32,710 nucleotides of DNA from the NCBI GenBank assembly GCA_016208235.1, contig JACQYN010000143.1, forward strand, positions 1-32,710, written 5' to 3'. Position numbers and translations under genes: made by a program. Of the stretch, positions 14,389 to 22,589 are shown in pieces. The notes beneath the pieces are model-generated. The model was not told the origin of the DNA, made no database searches, and saw only the letters and a program-made list of their open reading frames with translations. This DNA is from Deltaproteobacteria bacterium (lineage in GTDB: Bacteria > Desulfobacterota > Desulfobaccia > Desulfobaccales > 0-14-0-80-60-11). Position 1 is the first letter of the stretch. Each line of letters begins with the position of its first letter.

Positions 14389-15372
14389 TTAAAGATGCAG
14401 TTCCACCACGTCCCCTTCCTGGAGCACATAATCCCGCTGCACCCGTTGGCCCTCAAAGGTCTCCCGCCCCCAGACCCGGGCGAACTTGAATTTCCGGGCA
14501 ATATCCTGATGAATCCGCTGGGCCAACTCAAAAACGGTGGTGCCCGCGGGGATGACAAAGGGAGCCGTGAAATTGGCGGCCTTGCCCGGGGCCCGGGTAT
14601 AGACCCGGACCAGGTCCAGGAGCTGAAAGAGCGCGGCCCGCAAGGGCGAAAGCCCCCGGTTCTCCCGGGCGGAGGCCGGCAAGGCGTGCAGATTTTCCCG
14701 CAGAACTTCCAGATAAAACTCCAGCTCCTCGGGATCGGGGAGCTGGTCGCTTTGGTGAAAAATAATCAAACTGGGCTTGGTGTTGAGACCGGCGGCCCCG
14801 GGAGCCGCTTCCTTCTTCCTGGGAGCCAACTGGAAAGAAGCCAGAATCTTTTCTATTGCCTGGAGTTGCTCCAGGGGGTCCGCGGGCGGGGCCAGGATCA
14901 GGGCCCAGGCGTCGGCCCGGCGCAGGAGGTCCGGAAACCAGGGGTCGAGATAGTCGTCCCCCAGGGGCGGGGTATCCAGGAGCTGGACCTGGACGTTTTC
15001 AAAGCGCATCATTCCCGCCAGGGGGGTCCGGGTGCTGTAAGGAAAATCGGCAATCAGAGGTTGGGCTTTGGTGAGCGCGGCCAGGAGGGAGGACTTGCCG
15101 GTGTTGGGAGGACCGATGAGGGCCACCTGGCCCACCCCCTCCTTGTCCACCAGAAAGGCGGGGGTGCGGCGGCCAGGACCTTGGCGGCCCCGGCCCTGGT
15201 CTTTAAGTTGGGAGATGCGCCGCCTTAAGTCCGCCTTGAGCTTATCAGTGCCCTTATGCTTGGGCATGATGGCCAGCATCTCCTCCAGATAACGGAGCTT
15301 TTCGCTGGCAGACCGGGCCTCCCGATAGCGTTTTTCCACCTCAAAATACTGGGGCGGAAGGTTGGCCGGCAT
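14389..15372 (-). CDS. DRG/Obg-like GTPase with TGS domain
   Basis: The 327-aa protein starts with a helical coiled segment (residues 8-60, YFEVEKRYREARSASEKLRY). A G domain carries G1 GPPNTGKSS (87-95), an STRTP switch-I threonine, and G3 DTPPL (133-137). A C-terminal TGS domain follows (about 262-327, VFELAQRIHQDIARKFKFAR to GDVVELHL). This is the layout of DRG-type translation-associated GTPases, common in archaea and eukaryotes and present in some bacteria. The G4 motif is degenerate: HQSD (206-209) instead of NKxD, so guanine specificity may be relaxed. An RNA- or ribosome-related role is likely from the TGS domain. It lies downstream of rpoZ on the same strand with a 176-bp gap that holds no gene. 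Confidence 0.85.
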   Translation of the reverse strand: MPANLPPQYFEVEKRYREARSASEKLRYLEEMLAIMPKHKGTDKLKADLRRRISQLKDQGRGRQGPGRRTPAFLVDKEGVGQVALIGPPNTGKSSLLAALTKAQPLIADFPYSTRTPLAGMMRFENVQVQLLDTPPLGDDYLDPWFPDLLRRADAWALILAPPADPLEQLQAIEKILASFQLAPRKKEAAPGAAGLNTKPSLIIFHQSDQLPDPEELEFYLEVLRENLHALPASARENRGLSPLRAALFQLLDLVRVYTRAPGKAANFTAPFVIPAGTTVFELAQRIHQDIARKFKFARVWGRETFEGQRVQRDYVLQEGDVVELHL

Positions 15373-16235: not shown

Positions 16236-16263
16236 CTGAAAACTGAAAACTAAAAACTGAAAA
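16236..16263 (+). repeat. Heptad array, four units (CTGAAAA/CTAAAAA)
   Basis: Four 7-bp units followed by CCG overlap the 3' end of the ubiquitin-like gene and supply its last codons and stop. Confidence 0.75.
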
Positions 16264-16534
16264 CCGACCCCTTCTCCCCGGCCAGGCGCACGAATTCCAG
16301 TTGATCCCCTGCTTTAAGGACGTACGACGCGGCCACGTCCCGGCCGTTGACCAGGGCCAGGGCCCGGGGGTCGATGTTCAGGGGTTCTTTCAAGGCCTGG
16401 CGCACCTCGCCCACGGATTTGCCGGCAATGGCCGCGTCCAGGTGGTGCACCCCGTAGCTGACCTTCACCTGGCCGGAAGGAGCCCGGCCAGGCTGCTTGA
16501 GTCGTGACAGGTCTTTTAATTGTGCAGCACTCAT
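16250..16534 (-). CDS. Ubiquitin-like beta-grasp protein (Prok_Ub / PRTRC-C or MoaD/ThiS-like)
   Basis: The protein has 94 residues. After a 20-residue charged leader (LKDLSRLKQPGRAP), the beta-grasp pattern follows: strand VKVSYGVHHL, helix SVGEVRQAL, LALVNGRDVAASYVLKAGDQ and LEFVRLAGEKG. The VNGrdV...GDqLEF..aG ending is shared by sulfur carriers and by the ubiquitin-like PRTRC system protein C, which typically ends GxKG. Here GEKG is followed by five extra residues encoded by a heptad repeat. It lacks a terminal Gly-Gly, so thiocarboxylate carrier function is doubtful. It is the last gene of a minus-strand run (thioesterase, 251-aa unknown, Cys4 protein). Fold call is solid; role is inferred. 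Confidence 0.68.
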   Translation of the reverse strand: MSAAQLKDLSRLKQPGRAPSGQVKVSYGVHHLDAAIAGKSVGEVRQALKEPLNIDPRALALVNGRDVAASYVLKAGDQLEFVRLAGEKGSVFSF

Positions 16535-16586
16535 GTAACTCCGTTAAATCAAATTTCCTTTAAGGGATTGATGATCCTCATTTTTT

Positions 16587-16614
16587 ACGAAAAACGCAAA
16601 ACGCAAAACGAAAA
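16587..16614 (+). repeat. Heptad array, four units (ACGAAAA/ACGCAAA)
   Basis: Four 7-bp units end with ACCG, between the ubiquitin-like gene and the Cys4 mini-protein. The architecture is the same as the arrays at 14356 and 16236 although the unit differs. Confidence 0.75.
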
Positions 16615-16620
16615 ACCGCA

Positions 16621-16800
16621 CTATCGGGAGTCGGGCCCAGGGCAGACGGGTTTGGGAACCTCGCCCCCGCCCCGCCGGGCCAGCAGTTCTTTAAATTCTT
16701 CCGGCGAATAGATGTGGCCGCACCCCGGGCAGCGGGTTTCCACGCCCGCTCAAGTGGGGTGGAGGATGATTTTCGCCTGATGGCAGTAGACGCATTCCAT
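16621..16800 (-). CDS. Cys4 zinc-ribbon mini-protein with an in-frame TGA at codon 17
   Basis: The 60-codon frame reads MECVYCHQAKIILHPT, TGA, AGVETRCPGCGHIYSPEEF and on to EVPKPVCPGP. The pairs C3/C6 and C24/C27 make a canonical four-Cys zinc ribbon, which spans the TGA. The ATG lies 5 bp past the stop of the 251-aa gene, so translation is probably coupled. The TGA could be a nonsense mutation (for example from TGG or TGC), a sequencing error, or a selenocysteine codon. A short hairpin GCGGG/CCCGC begins right after the TGA, and an outer CACCCC/GGGGTG pairing encloses it, but this is not a clear bacterial SECIS. Function is unknown; perhaps a nucleic-acid or protein-binding ribbon. Confidence 0.55.
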
Positions 16801-16805
16801 AATTT

Positions 16806-17561
16806 TCACAGATACCGGGACAGCCGGGGCAACGCCGGGTCCACCTGGCGGCACTCCCGCAGCAGGGCGTTCAGGTAGAGCCAGGCAAAGCTAATGAGCA
16901 GCTCCGGGGCATACTTCCGGGCCCCGTGGTCGTCAAAGGCTATCTGCAACTCCCCGGAGGACACCTGGAGACGGTAGAGCAGGTCCCCCAACAGCGGCCA
17001 GACGATCTCCCAACCGTCTGGGGTGGCCTGATAAACGCCGGAATCCAGACGCCTTACAGCCACCTCCACCACCTCCGGGGAGGCCATCAGCAGCAAATCC
17101 CGCCGGGGCCCCAGGGAGACGTTTTCCAGGGGGCCGGACAGGGCCGCGGCAAAGTCTCGGAAAGGCAGCCACTTCTTCCCCGGTCCGGCTGCTTCCAGGG
17201 GGAAAGAGCCCCGGCCATAGCGGGCGACGATGGCCAAGTAATCCCAGGCAAAGACGTACGCGTCCTCGGTGGGCACGATCAGGCTCTTCCGGGCGTAAAA
17301 GACGCGCAGGTCCGCGCCGTGGTCCCCGTCATAATCAAAAAGGAGGTAGAGCTCCAGGGGCCGGAAAGGCTTTACACGCAAAACCCACTTAATGCTGGCG
17401 TAGGGGCGGCCCTCCAGGACCTCTCCCCCCAGGAGACGGGCCAGCAGGCCGGGGTCCAGAGAGCGCAGGCCCTCCAGGTCCTGGCGGTATTTCTTCCGGG
17501 CGTATTGGCGGATTTGGGCCTCCCAGCCCCAGCCCGTCTCAAACTGGCCCAGGGACACCAA
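16806..17561 (-). CDS. Hypothetical protein, 251 aa, in the UBL gene run
   Basis: This is a soluble alpha/beta protein with no signal or membrane segment. Notable stretches are FRPLELYLLFDYDGDHGADL, VPTEDAYVFAWDYLAIVARY, KKWLPFRDF and a Leu-rich helical C-terminus (PELLISFAWLYLNALLRE). I do not recognise the family; a weak resemblance to DUF3786-type sequences is possible but unsupported. The start is uncertain. A TTG at 17561 has no ribosome site, while the frame extends to a CTG at 17600 that overlaps the thioesterase stop and follows GGAGG, suggesting coupling and up to 13 extra residues. It is followed after 5 bp by the Cys4 protein, then by the ubiquitin-like gene. Confidence 0.7.
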   Translation of the reverse strand: MVSLGQFETGWGWEAQIRQYARKKYRQDLEGLRSLDPGLLARLLGGEVLEGRPYASIKWVLRVKPFRPLELYLLFDYDGDHGADLRVFYARKSLIVPTEDAYVFAWDYLAIVARYGRGSFPLEAAGPGKKWLPFRDFAAALSGPLENVSLGPRRDLLLMASPEVVEVAVRRLDSGVYQATPDGWEIVWPLLGDLLYRLQVSSGELQIAFDDHGARKYAPELLISFAWLYLNALLRECRQVDPALPRLSRYL

Positions 17562-17596
17562 GTCGTAAGGAAAATCAAGGGAAGCCGCCGGCTTGC

Positions 17597-17986
17597 TCAG
17601 CTCTTTTTCGCCTCCACCCGCTGATTGAATTTCTCTGCATTAATTATAAACCGCTCGTGCACCGCCTCGCCAATCTTTTCCTTTTCGTCAAAACCCTCGA
17701 CCTTGAAGGTGACCTTCCGTCCCTCCACCTGGGTGACTTCGGTGACCGCCCGGACCTCCATCCCCAGAGGCGTGGGAGCCGTGTGCTTCAGATTCATGGA
17801 GATGCCCACGGACTGCTCCCCGGGGCCCAGATGGGGAGCCATCAGACCTGCACTGGTCCCCTCGAACAGCCCCCCCAAGAACGGGGTGCCGAAGACATCG
17901 GGGACCCCATGGAAAAACTTCTGAGCCGAATGCTCCGGACCGGTCTTTAACCGCGTTTCATTCTTCATCCCCACTGTGATCGCCAT
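17597..17986 (-). CDS. Hot-dog fold thioesterase (FlK-like)
   Basis: The 129-residue single-domain hot-dog protein has VPDVFGTPFLGGLFEGTSAG, with the Glu/Thr region corresponding to the active site of fluoroacetyl-CoA thioesterase-type proteins. The diagnostic LKHTAPTPLG supplies the His followed by APTPxG. The C-terminal strands EGRKVTFKVEGFDEKEKIGE and HERFIIN complete the fold. Family members hydrolyse short acyl-CoA thioesters, probably in the cytoplasm; the substrate here is unknown. An AGGAGG-type site (TCAAGGAGGACCC) precedes the ATG. It heads a tight minus-strand run that continues with the 251-aa protein. Confidence 0.85.
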   Translation of the reverse strand: MAITVGMKNETRLKTGPEHSAQKFFHGVPDVFGTPFLGGLFEGTSAGLMAPHLGPGEQSVGISMNLKHTAPTPLGMEVRAVTEVTQVEGRKVTFKVEGFDEKEKIGEAVHERFIINAEKFNQRVEAKKS

Positions 17987-18033
17987 TGGGTCCTCCTTGA
18001 GTTGAGTTGGTGGTGGGAGAGGGGGCCGGATTT

Positions 18034-18090
18034 TCAGTAATCAGTAATCAGTGATCAGTTGTCTTTTCTGACTACTGATAACTGATTACT
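18034..18090 (+). repeat. Inverted heptad arrays (TCAGTAA against CTGATTA), hairpin
   Basis: Four units TCAGTAA/TCAGTGA/TCAGTTG are followed by three inverted units CTGACTA/CTGATAA/CTGATTA with only a 6-nt spacer, so the transcript can form a long imperfect hairpin. It lies between the flavodoxin and thioesterase genes and may act as a weak terminator or mRNA stabiliser. Confidence 0.75.
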
Positions 18091-18119
18091 ATCCTCGGCC
18101 CTCCCCCCACAAATCTTCT

Positions 18120-18725
18120 TCAAACCGCCAAAGGGTCCATTTTGATGGCGGACAAGACCTCGCCTTGGGCCAGGCGTTGGCCCAGGGCAGTGGCGGCGGT
18201 TAGTTCTTCGGTTCGGCTGAGAATCGCGCCTTTTTCGTCCACCCCTCGCACCAGGATTTCCGCGGCGTAGCGGACGTTGATGGCGTCGAAAAAGTATTTG
18301 GCCACCAGGCGGGCGCCCACGAAGACCAGGCGGCCCTTGGTGGCCCCGGCGCACAGGAGCACGCCCTGGCGGTCGCCTCCGGGAAAGTCCTGTTTCAGGA
18401 CGTAGCGCCGGGACCACAGGGCCTGGGTGCGGTCGATCATGGCCTTGGCCTGGGCGGAAACGCTGTAGAAAAAAATGGGGGAGGCCAGGGCTACCACGTC
18501 GGCCTCCAGGAGTTTGTCGTAAAGAGGGAGCATGTCGTCTTTAATGGGGCAGGTGCCGTCTTTGAAACAGTGATAAATTTCCATGCATGGGGAAATCTTA
18601 AGTTCCCGGAGGGAGACCTTCTCCACCACTGCGCCCCCCTGGGCCGCGCCCTGGAGGAAGGCGTCCAGCAGGACTTCCGAGTTGCCGCCCCGGCGGGGGC
18701 TGCCCCAGATGCCTAAAACCTTCAT
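18120..18725 (-). CDS. Flavodoxin-fold NADPH-dependent FMN reductase / iron-sulfur flavoprotein-like
   Basis: The 201-aa protein begins VLGIWGSPRRGGNSEVLL, the FMN phosphate-binding loop of the NADPH-dependent FMN reductase and iron-sulfur flavoprotein family. The ISF cluster motif is usually CX2CX2CX5C. Here Cys47, Cys53 and Cys59 occupy the expected positions, but the second Cys is Ile50, so a 4Fe-4S cluster would lack one ligand. VVALASPIFFYSVSAQAKAM is the conserved flavin-binding and dimer region. It probably is a cytoplasmic electron-transfer or quinone/FMN reductase. It is a single gene with a gap of 133 bp to the thioesterase. Confidence 0.82.
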   Translation of the reverse strand: MKVLGIWGSPRRGGNSEVLLDAFLQGAAQGGAVVEKVSLRELKISPCMEIYHCFKDGTCPIKDDMLPLYDKLLEADVVALASPIFFYSVSAQAKAMIDRTQALWSRRYVLKQDFPGGDRQGVLLCAGATKGRLVFVGARLVAKYFFDAINVRYAAEILVRGVDEKGAILSRTEELTAATALGQRLAQGEVLSAIKMDPLAV

Positions 18726-18966
18726 GATTGTCTCCTGGGCGCACCGATGCCGCGGCTGGCCGGCCCCCGGCTGGGTGAGGATTGTTACCGATTATTAAGA
18801 CTTATATACATAGGGAATTTTGGGGCAATGTCAAGTCAGATAATCACCTTGAAGGGTTAGCAAATTTCCTGGGAAGGAAATCAAATTGTTGCGGGGGCTG
18901 GAATTTGATATATTCGATGAATAAATTTGAAGCAGCTTTTACTTTAAATCGGTAAGGAGATCTATA

Positions 18967-19473
18967 ATGCCTAGCAAATTCAAGCGCGGTTTCCGCCATA
19001 TTTTTCAGGGGCTGGTTCTGGTGGCCTGCATTTTGGCTTTTGCCGCGGGCTCTTTGGCCGCCAACAAAGCCGCGCCCGACTTTTCTCTGCCGGACATCCT
19101 CCAGGGCAAGAATTACAGTCTGAGCCAGTATAAGGGCAAGGTGGTGATGATCAACTTCTTCACCTTTTTCTGCATGCCCTGCCGGGAAGAGATGCCGGAT
19201 TTGAACAACATCTACAAGGAAATGCAGGGTAAGGGCCTGCAAGTCCTGGGAATCGGCCTCAGTTCCGATCCCGTGCAGCTCCGCTTTCTGGTCAAGCAAA
19301 TCGGGTTGACCTACCCGGTGCTGGCGGGCAACGACAAGGTGAGCAAGGACTACGGGAATGTTGAGGTGGTGCCCACCACCTTCATTATCGACAAACAGGG
19401 GAATATCGCCCATAAGATCCTGGGGACCCGCAAAAAAGAAGAGTTCGTCAAGATGATTCAGGCGTTGCTCTAG
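18967..19473 (+). CDS. TlpA/ResA-like secreted or membrane-anchored thioredoxin
   Basis: A hydrophobic N-terminal segment (about 12-32, GLVLVACILAFAAGSLA) serves as signal or anchor. A redoxin domain follows with APDFSLPDILQGKNYSLSQY, active site CMPC (Cys69/Cys72) and a cis-Pro loop VVPTTFIID. The 168-aa length fits ResA/TlpA-type proteins that reduce disulfides outside the cytoplasm, for instance in cytochrome c maturation. The purine-rich AAGGAGA lies 7 bp ahead of the ATG. The gene is monocistronic; a long palindrome downstream could terminate it. Confidence 0.9.
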   Translation: MPSKFKRGFRHIFQGLVLVACILAFAAGSLAANKAAPDFSLPDILQGKNYSLSQYKGKVVMINFFTFFCMPCREEMPDLNNIYKEMQGKGLQVLGIGLSSDPVQLRFLVKQIGLTYPVLAGNDKVSKDYGNVEVVPTTFIIDKQGNIAHKILGTRKKEEFVKMIQALL

Positions 19474-19535
19474 TGGGGGCTTCATAATTTGGATGATTTA
19501 CATTTAATGGGGATGGCCGAGGAAATGGGAGGTAT

Positions 19536-19620
19536 TTCCCCCCTTTTCTAAAGGGGGGTCAGGGGGGATTTTAAGCAACCCGTTGAAAATCCCCCTAAAT
19601 CCCCCTTTAAAAAAGGGGGA
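19536..19620 (+). repeat. Long palindrome of the CCCCCTTT...AAAGGGGG / AAATCCCCC type
   Basis: The arm TCCCCCCTTTTCTAAAGGGG (left, continuing to GGGGGATTTT) is matched by AAAATCCCCCTAAATCCCCC ... AAAAAAGGGGGA on the right with a 15-nt spacer. It lies 63 bp after the thioredoxin gene. This sequence class is common in bacterial intergenic DNA. The rest of the 296-bp gap to the AAA gene shows nothing else. Confidence 0.85.
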
Positions 19621-19769
19621 CTTAAAATCCGCTATCCGGATGCCTCCCCAAATATTTACCCCATAATCTATGAAGAATGACCCTGGATAGGAAAGGCAGC
19701 ATCGCCCTGCGGGTTGCCAAGAGTTGGGGGGCTGTTAATGGCCCCCCGGGACACGAGTGAGGTATAAAT

Positions 19770-21515
19770 ATGGGGCCCGAGATTAAATTGCCGGAGTGGG
19801 CCCAGGAATTAGAGGAACATCTCCAGGCCGGGGAGTCGGCATTGTTCATTCTCCATGGCCAGGTGTTCGATTACGTCCGGGTGAACGGCGATTACCTGCC
19901 TTGCCGCTCCTTTCTGGGGGACTGGCTGGGTGAGGAGCGCCATGTAGTGTTTTACAATTTAGGTCTAGGCCTGGAATTCGGAGACGCCCAGGGTGAACAA
20001 CTCTTCCGCCAGGCCCTGGCGCCGCCCCAGGCGGAAGACGACGAAGAAGAAGACGTCTCCCGGGTCCGGGCCCGGGCCCTGAAAGCCCTGGGTCAGCGGC
20101 CCGCTCCCGAACCGTTACCTCAAAGTCCCCGGGAAGTGCTGCAACTGGCGGAGCGGGTGATGACCGCCTGCTGTCAGTTCCCGGGCCCCACCAAGCCCCT
20201 GGCCTTCATCCTGGAGTACGCCGAAACCATTGTCCCGGCCCTGGAGTTGGGGTCCATGACCGAGCCGGACCGGGCCTCCCTGGTGACTCTGCTGCGATGG
20301 GCCCGCCACCGGGACCTCATCGATGCCGGGCACGTGGTGGTGCTCACCACCGGCAATCTGGCGGATTTAAATCCCATGCTGCTGCTGAGCCGCTACGGGG
20401 CCCAGATCATCGACGTCCCGGCTCCGGAGCTGGAGGACCGGGTCGCGTTCATCGAGCATCTCCTGGCCCGGGGCAAATATAATCTGGCCCTGACCGCCAA
20501 AGAGCTGGCCAACCTGGCCGCGGGCCTGAGCCTGCGCGTGGTGGGCCAACTCCTGCGCCAGGGACGCCGACAACCCTTAACCATGGACCTGGTACGCCGC
20601 AAAAAGAAGGAATTGCTGCGCCAGGAGCTGGTGGGTCTCATCGAAGTCATCGAACCCCGCTACGGCCTCGCGGATATCGGCGGGCTGGACCCCATCAAAG
20701 ATTATTTCGCCCAGATCGTCAAGGCCATCCAGGCCGGGGAAGACAAACTGGTGCCACGGGGCATCACCATGATGGGACCGCCGGGCGTGGGTAAAACCGC
20801 GCTGGCCGAGGCCCTGGCCCGGGATTGCGGCTTCAATTTCATCAAGCTCCTTAACCCCCGCACCAAGTGGGTGGGGGAATCGGAGCGCAATTTCTTCAAG
20901 GCCCTCCAGACCCTGCGCTCCTTAACTCCGGTGGTAGTGGTGGAGGACGAGGCCGACCAGAGCGAACACGGCCGGGACGAATACTCCGGGGATACCGGGG
21001 TGAGCAACCGCCTGCGCCAGATGCGCTTCGAGTTCGTGGGGGACCCCGCCATCCAGGGTAAAGTCCTGTGGATCAGGATCACCAACCGCCCGGACCGCCT
21101 GGATAAGGCGGATCTCCGCTCCGGGCGCTCCTCTGAGCGCATTCCCTTCTTCATGCCGGATTTCACGGAGAAGGTCCACATCCTGGAGGTGGTGGCCCGG
21201 CGCAGCAACATTCCCTGCGACCCCCAGGATTTTCCCGAGGTAGTGCGCCACCTGGAGGCGCGCCACCCTGAGGTGATCACCGGCGGGGACCTGGAGGAGA
21301 TCGTTTTCCGGGCCTACCGCCTGGCCCGCATCCAGGGCCGGGAGAAGGTGAAGCTGGACGATTTCCGGGCGGTCATCGACGACTTCCTGCCGCCCCACCA
21401 GATGGAAGTGCTGCGGCAGATGGAACGCCTGGCCCTGAACCAGTGCTCCTCCCGGCGTTTCATCCCGGAGCGGGTCTGGTCCTGGGCCGCGCGGCGGGAG
21501 GAGGCGGAGGGGTGA
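19770..21515 (+). CDS. Ycf46-like AAA+ ATPase, 581 aa
   Basis: Two AAA-like halves are visible. The N-terminal half is degenerate: it has a Walker-B-like LAFILEYAETI and a sensor-like VVVLTTGNLADL but no P-loop. The C-terminal half is complete: Walker A GPPGVGKT (336-343), a WVGESERNFFKAL pore/second-region motif, Walker B VVVVEDEAD (388-396), sensor 1 TNRPDRLD (Asn439) and arginine residues in SGRSSER (451-457). This layout resembles Ycf46 and CDC48-type remodelling ATPases. An acidic linker (EDDEEED, about 89-95) joins strands of the first half. It probably remodels proteins or complexes using ATP. It precedes an E2-like protein on the same strand by about 200 bp; partnership is inferred from position only. 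Confidence 0.85.
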   Translation: MGPEIKLPEWAQELEEHLQAGESALFILHGQVFDYVRVNGDYLPCRSFLGDWLGEERHVVFYNLGLGLEFGDAQGEQLFRQALAPPQAEDDEEEDVSRVRARALKALGQRPAPEPLPQSPREVLQLAERVMTACCQFPGPTKPLAFILEYAETIVPALELGSMTEPDRASLVTLLRWARHRDLIDAGHVVVLTTGNLADLNPMLLLSRYGAQIIDVPAPELEDRVAFIEHLLARGKYNLALTAKELANLAAGLSLRVVGQLLRQGRRQPLTMDLVRRKKKELLRQELVGLIEVIEPRYGLADIGGLDPIKDYFAQIVKAIQAGEDKLVPRGITMMGPPGVGKTALAEALARDCGFNFIKLLNPRTKWVGESERNFFKALQTLRSLTPVVVVEDEADQSEHGRDEYSGDTGVSNRLRQMRFEFVGDPAIQGKVLWIRITNRPDRLDKADLRSGRSSERIPFFMPDFTEKVHILEVVARRSNIPCDPQDFPEVVRHLEARHPEVITGGDLEEIVFRAYRLARIQGREKVKLDDFRAVIDDFLPPHQMEVLRQMERLALNQCSSRRFIPERVWSWAARREEAEG

Positions 21516-21662
21516 AGATTTTGTAGGGGGAGGGGCCAGGGACCCGAGGCTTTTGCATTCCCCCACATCCCCCTCCCAACCCGCATATTTCTTGTGGGGC
21601 GGGCGCTGCCCGCCATGTTTGACTGGTAGCAGAGGCTTTCCAGCCTGTGCCGGCGTAAGCTT

Positions 21663-21787
21663 TCCCCCTCACCCTACCCTCTCCCCCAGGGGGGAGAGGG
21701 AAAAAGGGAAGAACCACCCGCATTGTTCTTGAAAGGATTTTCTCCCTCTCCCCCCTGGGGGGGAGAGGGCTGGGGTGAGGGGGGGAA
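21663..21787 (+). repeat. Inverted pair of CCCTCACCCTACCCTCTCCC palindromes
   Basis: The left arm (21663-21705) and right arm (21738-21787) are inverted copies, and each contains an internal CCCTCTCCCCC/GGGGGGAGAGGG hairpin. The type is a well-known widespread bacterial intergenic repeat. Its right arm is read through by the 5' end of the following gene. Confidence 0.85.
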
Positions 21788-22589
21788 ATGTGGAGCGGCT
21801 GAAATTAGCGAGAAGATTATCTTTACGGGCCAGGAGGCTCAACTCCTGGAGGAAAGCGGCGATCAGGGTGCCCGGGTGGCCCGGCGGGCCCCCATCGACT
21901 CCCTGCTGCGCTATGTGACCGGGGTGATGCCGGCGCCGCTGCCGGTCCTGCCCCCGGGCACCAGGTGGTTGGCGGCCAGGAAAGACCTGCTCTTCCTGGT
22001 GGTGGAGCACCTCCCCCAATGCCGCAGCCTCCGGGGGAGTTGGGGGAAAAAGGGCGCGGACGACTATCGCACCTACCGCCTGGCCTTCCCCTACATCCTT
22101 TATCTTCTCAGCTTTTACCGGGGCGATCTCCAGGAAATGAAGATGTTTTATCGGGTGAGCCCCCTTACCTCCCTGGGGGACCCCTTATACCACACCAATC
22201 TCCCCAACGTCCGGGGAGAGCCCGGCCATTACGGCTCCCAAAGGGTCTGCCTGCGCTACCGCCCGGAGATGCTGGAAGGCGTGCCCCTGGTGGAAGCGGT
22301 GCCAACGCTGATCGACTTTTTCTGGAGCACCGGTTTCAACCAGGACATCGCCGGCAGCGCGTTCGAGCGGGCCCAGGGCCTGGACCCGCGCGTCGCCAGC
22401 TTTGACTCCTGGGAAGCCGCCACTCAACAAGACCCCCTGTTCCCCCTGCAAATTAATTGGGAGCGGGCCGAGCAGACCATTCCCGGCCTCTGGCTGGAGT
22501 GCCTGAAGCTCCACGGGGACACGGACCAGCCCCTGGCCAGCGCCGAAGAACTGGCGGATATCCTCTATCGGTTGCCGGTGGGGTATTGA
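21723..22589 (+). CDS. Prokaryotic E2-like protein (PRTRC-B / Prok-E2_D resemblance)
   Basis: Conserved blocks match the order seen in PRTRC system protein B. A helix SLLRYVTGVMP leads into a Trp-containing strand RWLAARKDLLFLVV. FPYILYLLSFYRGDLQEMKM is then followed by LYHTNLPNV, QRVCLRYR (Cys176 counted from the TTG start) and LIDFFWSTGFNQDI. PRTRC-B is described as an E2/UBC-superfamily member that acts beside ubiquitin-like and E1-like proteins. Here a ubiquitin-like gene lies 5.2 kb away, with no E1 or JAB peptidase visible. The reading frame begins inside the preceding palindrome (TTG 21723 or 21729), so the first 25 residues are repeat-derived and the true start may have been lost. Family call moderate. 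Confidence 0.55.
   Translation: MFLKGFSPSPPWGGEGWGEGGKCGAAEISEKIIFTGQEAQLLEESGDQGARVARRAPIDSLLRYVTGVMPAPLPVLPPGTRWLAARKDLLFLVVEHLPQCRSLRGSWGKKGADDYRTYRLAFPYILYLLSFYRGDLQEMKMFYRVSPLTSLGDPLYHTNLPNVRGEPGHYGSQRVCLRYRPEMLEGVPLVEAVPTLIDFFWSTGFNQDIAGSAFERAQGLDPRVASFDSWEAATQQDPLFPLQINWERAEQTIPGLWLECLKLHGDTDQPLASAEELADILYRLPVGY

Follow-up and report, generated by a model that had tools for sequence, protein, structure and literature searches.

The window analysed here, a whole stretch of 32,710 nucleotides, is contig C105 of genome G000 (3.08 Mb, 272 contigs), and it carries genes for a ubiquitin-like protein (Ubl), an AAA ATPase and a protein resembling a ubiquitin-conjugating enzyme (E2). The initial annotation of this stretch read these genes as a possible partial ubiquitin-like system, similar to the PRTRC type and lacking an activating enzyme (E1) and a JAB peptidase. 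The open reading frames (ORFs) named there are present in the sequence. The two supposedly missing genes lie on another contig of the same genome, C150, and encode relatives of PRTRC-ThiF and PRTRC-A. Distribution was counted across the order in 29 genomes, with a sample of 297 from the phylum for wider comparison. The named relatives are metagenome-assembled genomes (MAGs) labelled Desulfobaccales, Desulfobacca, Syntrophobacterales or Deltaproteobacteria, and the carrier bacteria are sediment and groundwater dwellers.

Five genes of a probable ubiquitin-like system

The genes in the window and on the second contig are as follows.

16250..16534, minus strand: Ubl, a ubiquitin-like beta-grasp protein of 94 aa (Pfam ThiS/TGS, fold matches, conserved end)
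19770..21515, plus strand: AAA ATPase of 581 aa, with the AAA domain at residues 333-460 (Pfam AAA, E 5e-22)
21804..22589, plus strand: E2, PRTRC-B-like (Prok-E2 family D), with the motif LPNV...VC and an ATT start (hhalign, distribution)
G000:C150, 5055-5717: JAB, on the other contig of the same genome
G000:C150, from 6020 to the contig end: E1, a short, divergent ThiF protein of about 223 aa

The Ubl is a beta-grasp protein, as had been proposed, and is of the ThiS/TGS type. Its best Pfam match is ThiS (E 1.8e-4; 22.4 bits, just below the cut-off of 22.5). The AlphaFold model is of low confidence (predicted local distance difference test, pLDDT, 53) and has the order strand-strand-helix-strand-strand. 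Almost all of the solved structures nearest to this model are beta-grasp proteins, including TGS, SUMO, NEDD8 and ubiquitin (template modelling scores mostly 0.5-0.65); a PDB sequence search with the Ubl profile gave no match. The conserved domain ends in QLEFVRLAGEKG (Gly89, at the end of LAGEKG), followed by an unconserved tail, SVFSF. In the alignment of 11 Ubl sequences, for which one tail was shortened beforehand, this end is identical throughout, the tails beyond it are unrelated and none of the sequences stops at the Gly. Tail lengths range from 1 to about 45 residues, based on the reading frames. PRTRC-C proteins likewise finish in G-x-KG, some of them with a tail. The end therefore looks like that of a precursor cut back to a C-terminal Gly, and trimming by the JAB would explain why an invariant end is followed by variable tails.

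The E2-like gene is real, and its PRTRC kinship, one of two such relationships initially suggested, is borne out by profile comparison. When the E2 family was aligned with 23 PRTRC-B proteins using hhalign, the match had E 1e-5 over 141 columns and a score of 42, which none of 80 shuffles reached (maximum 26). The LPNV...VC of the E2 falls on the conserved NV...C of PRTRC-B, Cys on Cys (Cys150 of alignment A2). This deeper PRTRC-B profile included ten additional Bacillota PRTRC-B proteins, traced via a Paenibacillus plasmid with a similar JAB. Profile searches with a smaller PRTRC-B alignment were not significant, hmmsearch of PRTRC-B models against the E2 gave scores within the shuffle range, and the E2 has no NCBIfam match. 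Judged by this alignment, the E2-like protein is divergent but related to protein B, which is the E2 of the PRTRC cassette.

The start first assigned to this gene, TTG at 21723, is probably not the true one, and the conserved protein appears to begin with ATT at 21804. In all 12 homologues read, the start codon appears to be ATC, ATT or ATA, and two of these have an in-frame stop one or two codons before it, which leaves those two no usual start codon ahead of the conserved sequence. That so rare a start is conserved suggests that translation is low or controlled by initiation factors.

The AAA ATPase had been linked to the E2 by position, and the shared distribution supports this. The gap between the two genes holds different cargo in each relative, including DUF559-like nucleases, a DNA methylase and toxin-antitoxin-like genes (L033:11186-12650, L036:7000-8260, L037:7060-8540, L038:5400-7000), and resembles an insertion hot spot. 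Neither E1 nor JAB was seen within this variable cargo.

The E1 and JAB genes came to light when the 29 genomes were searched for ThiF and Prok-JAB. They are neighbours in G000, G002, G003, G012, G013, G014, G016, G017 and G018, and across a contig break in G015; in G011 they are on separate contigs, and G004 yielded the E1 alone, close to the end of a contig. In profile-profile comparisons (hhalign) with PRTRC proteins from 8-12 plasmids, checked by column shuffles, the JAB matched PRTRC-A with E 4e-15 and the E1 matched PRTRC-ThiF with E 4e-17, and no column shuffle came close to either. The only NCBIfam match of the JAB is PRTRC_A (E 4e-10; 39.5 bits, where the curated cut-off is 101.8) and its JAMM motif, HSH...SERD (GTIHSHAAVEAFHSERD), is intact. 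PRTRC_ThiF is the best NCBIfam match of the G000 E1 (43.6 bits against 144.75). On these comparisons the C150 pair are relatives of PRTRC-ThiF and PRTRC-A, the homology being clear for the JAB.

Distribution of the module

Ubl, AAA, E2, JAB and E1, here called the module, are present in the same 12-13 of the 29 genomes. The Ubl is in 12 and the E2 in 13, full-length AAA orthologues are restricted to the 12 module genomes, and the genomes with E1 or JAB are those with Ubl, E2 and full-length AAA, and no others. The initial annotation had suggested looking in relatives for ThiF and JAB genes and for co-occurrence; the former are on the second locus of the module genomes and the latter holds for Ubl, AAA and E2. 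Neither Ubl nor E2 was found elsewhere among the 297 phylum genomes. The E2 was not seen in other lineages of a public genome collection, where all 12 matches are the same kin, and tblastn found no significant relatives of it on plasmids.

In a tree of three conserved neighbour proteins (581 columns, 29 genomes), the module genomes fall within a clade of five genera (support 99/96) and belong to four of them. The remaining genus, g8 (G019, 98 % complete; G020, 93 % complete), is nested within this clade and has none of the five genes. This distribution takes two changes to explain, and a single change is possible in no bootstrap tree. The simplest reading is a single gain and a loss of the whole set from its separate loci; two gains would take an equal number of steps. 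The neighbourhood in the window is kept in at least ten related genomes and Ubl, AAA and E2 occur in the same 12-13 of the 29, therefore the arrangement is more than chance. On gene content and distribution, the five genes are a dispersed system, neither reduced nor a chance mix.

Interpretation and comparison with known systems

It is probable that these genes form a complete ubiquitin-like conjugation and deconjugation module. It would be a distant relative of the PRTRC cassette of plasmids, chromosomal in one Desulfobacterota family and spread over at least two loci, the window holding the genes for Ubl, AAA ATPase and E2 and the other contig those for JAB and E1. Four of the five parts are shown by homology to belong to the E1, E2, JAB and AAA families, and the fifth is a beta-grasp protein. 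In such a module, the JAB metallopeptidase would trim the variable tail of the Ubl, exposing Gly89, which the ThiF-type E1 would adenylate, as expected from its family. The PRTRC-B-like E2 would then take up the Ubl on its Cys and hand it to a target protein. The JAB would undo the modification, and the AAA ATPase would unfold or remodel modified proteins.

Several observations weigh against this interpretation. The Ubl, proposed to be PRTRC-C-like, has a beta-grasp fold as expected but its kinship to PRTRC-C is not supported by sequence, with no significant similarity in profile comparisons by hhalign or hmmsearch; hmmsearch scores of PRTRC-C models against it are within the shuffle range. 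The AlphaFold model of the E2 (pLDDT 60) gave no usable fold match with Foldseek. None of the curated PRTRC cut-offs of NCBIfam is reached, the E1 of G016 scores slightly higher with MoeB than with PRTRC_ThiF, and the hhalign E-values against PRTRC-A, PRTRC-ThiF and PRTRC-B are from single comparisons. The carriers all belong to one clade, so that no more than one or two events underlie the co-distribution, and there is an exception to it in G001 (73 % complete), which has the E2 only, on a 12.8-kb contig without the AAA.

Some of the same features would suit a sulfur-carrier relay, in which a ThiS/MoaD-like Ubl, trimmed by the JAB and thiocarboxylated via the E1, supplies a pathway for a cofactor, metabolite or tRNA with sulfur (or selenium), and the E2-like protein acts as acceptor or scaffold rather than as a conjugating enzyme. 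The best Pfam match of the Ubl is indeed ThiS, the E1 scores close to MoeB and ThiF, and redox genes are among the neighbours. ThiS and MoaD end in GG, however, where LAGEKG has a single Gly, and the Ubl is distributed together with a PRTRC-B-like E2 that has a conserved Cys and with a dedicated AAA ATPase. A relay of this kind is therefore unlikely. Far less likely still is the reduced variant or chance mix raised initially, meaning an E1- and JAB-free remnant of Ubl, AAA and E2, or unrelated genes that happen to be close. Although the window itself has no E1 or JAB and the cargo between AAA and E2 in relatives is unrelated, the same genomes carry E1 and JAB at a second locus and the five genes are jointly present and absent.

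The known systems closest to the module include the PRTRC cassette (NCBIfam TIGR03735, protein A; TIGR03736, ThiF; TIGR03737, protein B; and protein C). Judged by its make-up, this cassette appears to correspond to row 6d in Iyer et al. 2006, which contains a Ubl, JAB, E1, E2 and a helical protein (PMC1779556). PRTRC and the module have in common a Ubl ending in G-x-KG with a variable tail, a PRTRC-A-like JAB, a PRTRC-ThiF-like E1 and a PRTRC-B-like E2. Unlike PRTRC, the module is chromosomal, is on at least two loci rather than in a single contiguous cassette, and has its own AAA ATPase; its scores are far under the curated cut-offs and its Ubl is not detectably PRTRC-C by sequence. Among the scanned flanking genes there were no ParB-family or E/F proteins, ParB elsewhere in the genome not having been searched for. 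It is likely that the module works like PRTRC, although by curated cut-offs and layout it is not a member. PRTRC-type Ubl systems have, to our knowledge, no assigned function. A chromosomal version in four genera, apparently lost as a set, indicates that E1, E2, Ubl, JAB and AAA belong together without a single operon, and offers a stable setting in which to search for targets. It also means that Ubl systems that seem incomplete on one contig can be complete genome-wide.

The Bil operons (BilABCD; PMC11354881) also have four genes for a Ubl, an E2, a JAB-type deubiquitinase and an E1. However, there are two Ubl domains in BilA and the E1, BilD, consists of two domains, whereas the module has a single Ubl and a 223-aa E1, and the PADLOC match to BilD is weak (E 2.5e-6). 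An anti-phage identity was not supported by PADLOC, which found only a generic AAA (IetA) and weak E1/BilD matches. Within the same order, a cluster in G026:C173 (L107:1077-6345) has an AAA that is 33 % identical to the window AAA over 309 residues, downstream of a DUF2997-like small protein and a protein that combines a ThiF domain with an HSHP motif resembling that of JAB. There, in contrast to the module, E1 and JAB are fused in one protein and no PRTRC-B-like E2 was seen. This cluster, in a genome without the PRTRC-like module, is possibly another ubiquitin-like system.

Full-length relatives of the AAA ATPase are present on large plasmids of Paenibacillaceae (L205:6986-8608, L206:6992-8569, L207, L208), with about 28 % identity and up to 96 % coverage, and no E1, JAB or E2 was recognised beside them. 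The ATPase next to PRTRC-B on a Deinococcus plasmid was rejected as a relative, having nothing in common with the AAA past the P-loop. A Paenibacillus rhizovicinus plasmid (L209:5537-8624) has an unannotated triple of PRTRC-B-like, PRTRC-A-like and ThiF genes, and many Bacillota plasmids carry similar triples. PRTRC-C-like genes are on 228 plasmid records.

The selenoprotein mini-gene and older neighbours

Upstream of the Ubl gene are the following features, including a candidate selenocysteine insertion sequence (SECIS).

16621..16800, minus strand: selenoprotein mini-gene of 59 codons, C..C(10)U(7)C..CG, just upstream of the Ubl
16750..16752, minus strand: in-frame TGA, read as selenocysteine (Sec)
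16717..16733, minus strand: candidate SECIS apical stem-loop, with a 5-bp stem and a 7-nt loop with invariant GG
16806..17594, minus strand: conserved protein of 251-262 aa (16806..17561, or ending at 17594, depending on the start), adjoining the selenoprotein gene order-wide
17597-17986, minus strand: FlK-type hotdog thioesterase (Pfam)
18120-18725, minus strand: NADPH-dependent flavin mononucleotide (FMN) reductase-like protein (Pfam)

The mini-gene had been described as encoding a Cys4 mini-protein. The gene is there; it is not a plain ORF, since TGA is in frame at 16750-16752. The selenocysteine codon is TGA in 26 of the 29 genomes and TGC (Cys) in G019, and is never TAA or TAG; no copy was seen downstream in G021, and the contig of G020 ends there. 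In the 16 TGA-bearing copies compared, the ratio of nonsynonymous to synonymous polymorphism (pN/pS) after the TGA is 0.37 in frame and >1 in both other frames. G000 has a tRNA-Sec of 78 bits. The candidate SECIS stem starts about 20 nt past the UGA, inside the range of 16-37 nt after UGA known for bacterial SECIS elements (PMC13188914), and a consensus stem is found in 22 homologues. That the TGA is instead a nonsense mutation or ordinary stop is extremely unlikely. Such a stop would be consistent with the weak covariation of the SECIS, with the best fold of the window's own RNA, which is a hairpin other than the candidate, and with the TGA-bearing MAGs G012, G013 and G026, in which no full-scoring tRNA-Sec was found. 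It would not be consistent with the same codon being TGA in 26 genomes and Cys in G019, with purifying selection in frame beyond it, with the tRNA-Sec of G000, or with relatives in a known selenoprotein family (PMC13188914).

This family, NF041197 (dual CXXC motif small (seleno)protein), is listed as a selenoprotein, OS_HP3 (PMC13188914). The mini-protein scores 23.6 bits against it, not reaching the curated score of 40, and has the CxxC - Sec - CxxC layout. Both have two CxxC pairs with Sec between them and are from the same phylum. The mini-protein differs in having PTU rather than RTU and another C-terminus, and in having the conserved 251-aa protein as its partner and, within a single clade, the Ubl behind it. 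By sequence and layout it is a divergent relative of the known family, not a member by the NCBI rule, and the UGA mini-gene extends that family. Annotation that stops at the UGA would cut the mini-gene in half, hiding such genes. More distant TGA-bearing relatives are present in other families of the phylum.

The 251-aa protein is in 29 of the 29 genomes and has no match elsewhere in the phylum sample. Its fold had been singled out for checking; there is no similarity to PRTRC-B (hhalign E 0.49, with 70 of 100 shuffles equally good), and it was rejected as a second E2. The 251-aa and selenoprotein genes are neighbours across the order whether the Ubl module is present or absent, and together with the thioesterase and FMN reductase-like genes they are in the same order in genomes without the module. 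The pair therefore predates the module here, and its genes are operon neighbours that are not shown to belong to the Ubl system. The selenoprotein gene is followed directly by the Ubl gene, with a 4-nt overlap in one match pair of G011; this overlap and close spacing suggest one operon, and the Ubl may be co-expressed with redox- or selenium-linked genes. The mini-protein looks like an operon neighbour of the Ubl, its membership of the Ubl system being unproven. It is doubtful that the selenoprotein and 251-aa protein are working parts of this system in the clade, for example as a Sec-containing, zinc-ribbon-like, redox-sensitive adaptor (E3-like) or as the main target. If true, a ubiquitin-like pathway would be wired to selenium or redox state.

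The genus without the Ubl module also supplies the sole mini-protein found with Cys in place of Sec (L190, genome G019, where it follows the 251-aa gene), a single case that is possibly coincidence. A TGS-domain GTPase (window 14389-15372) is near rpoZ in this cluster, and other families of the phylum likewise have it close to selenoprotein genes of the NF041197 type (L088, L090).

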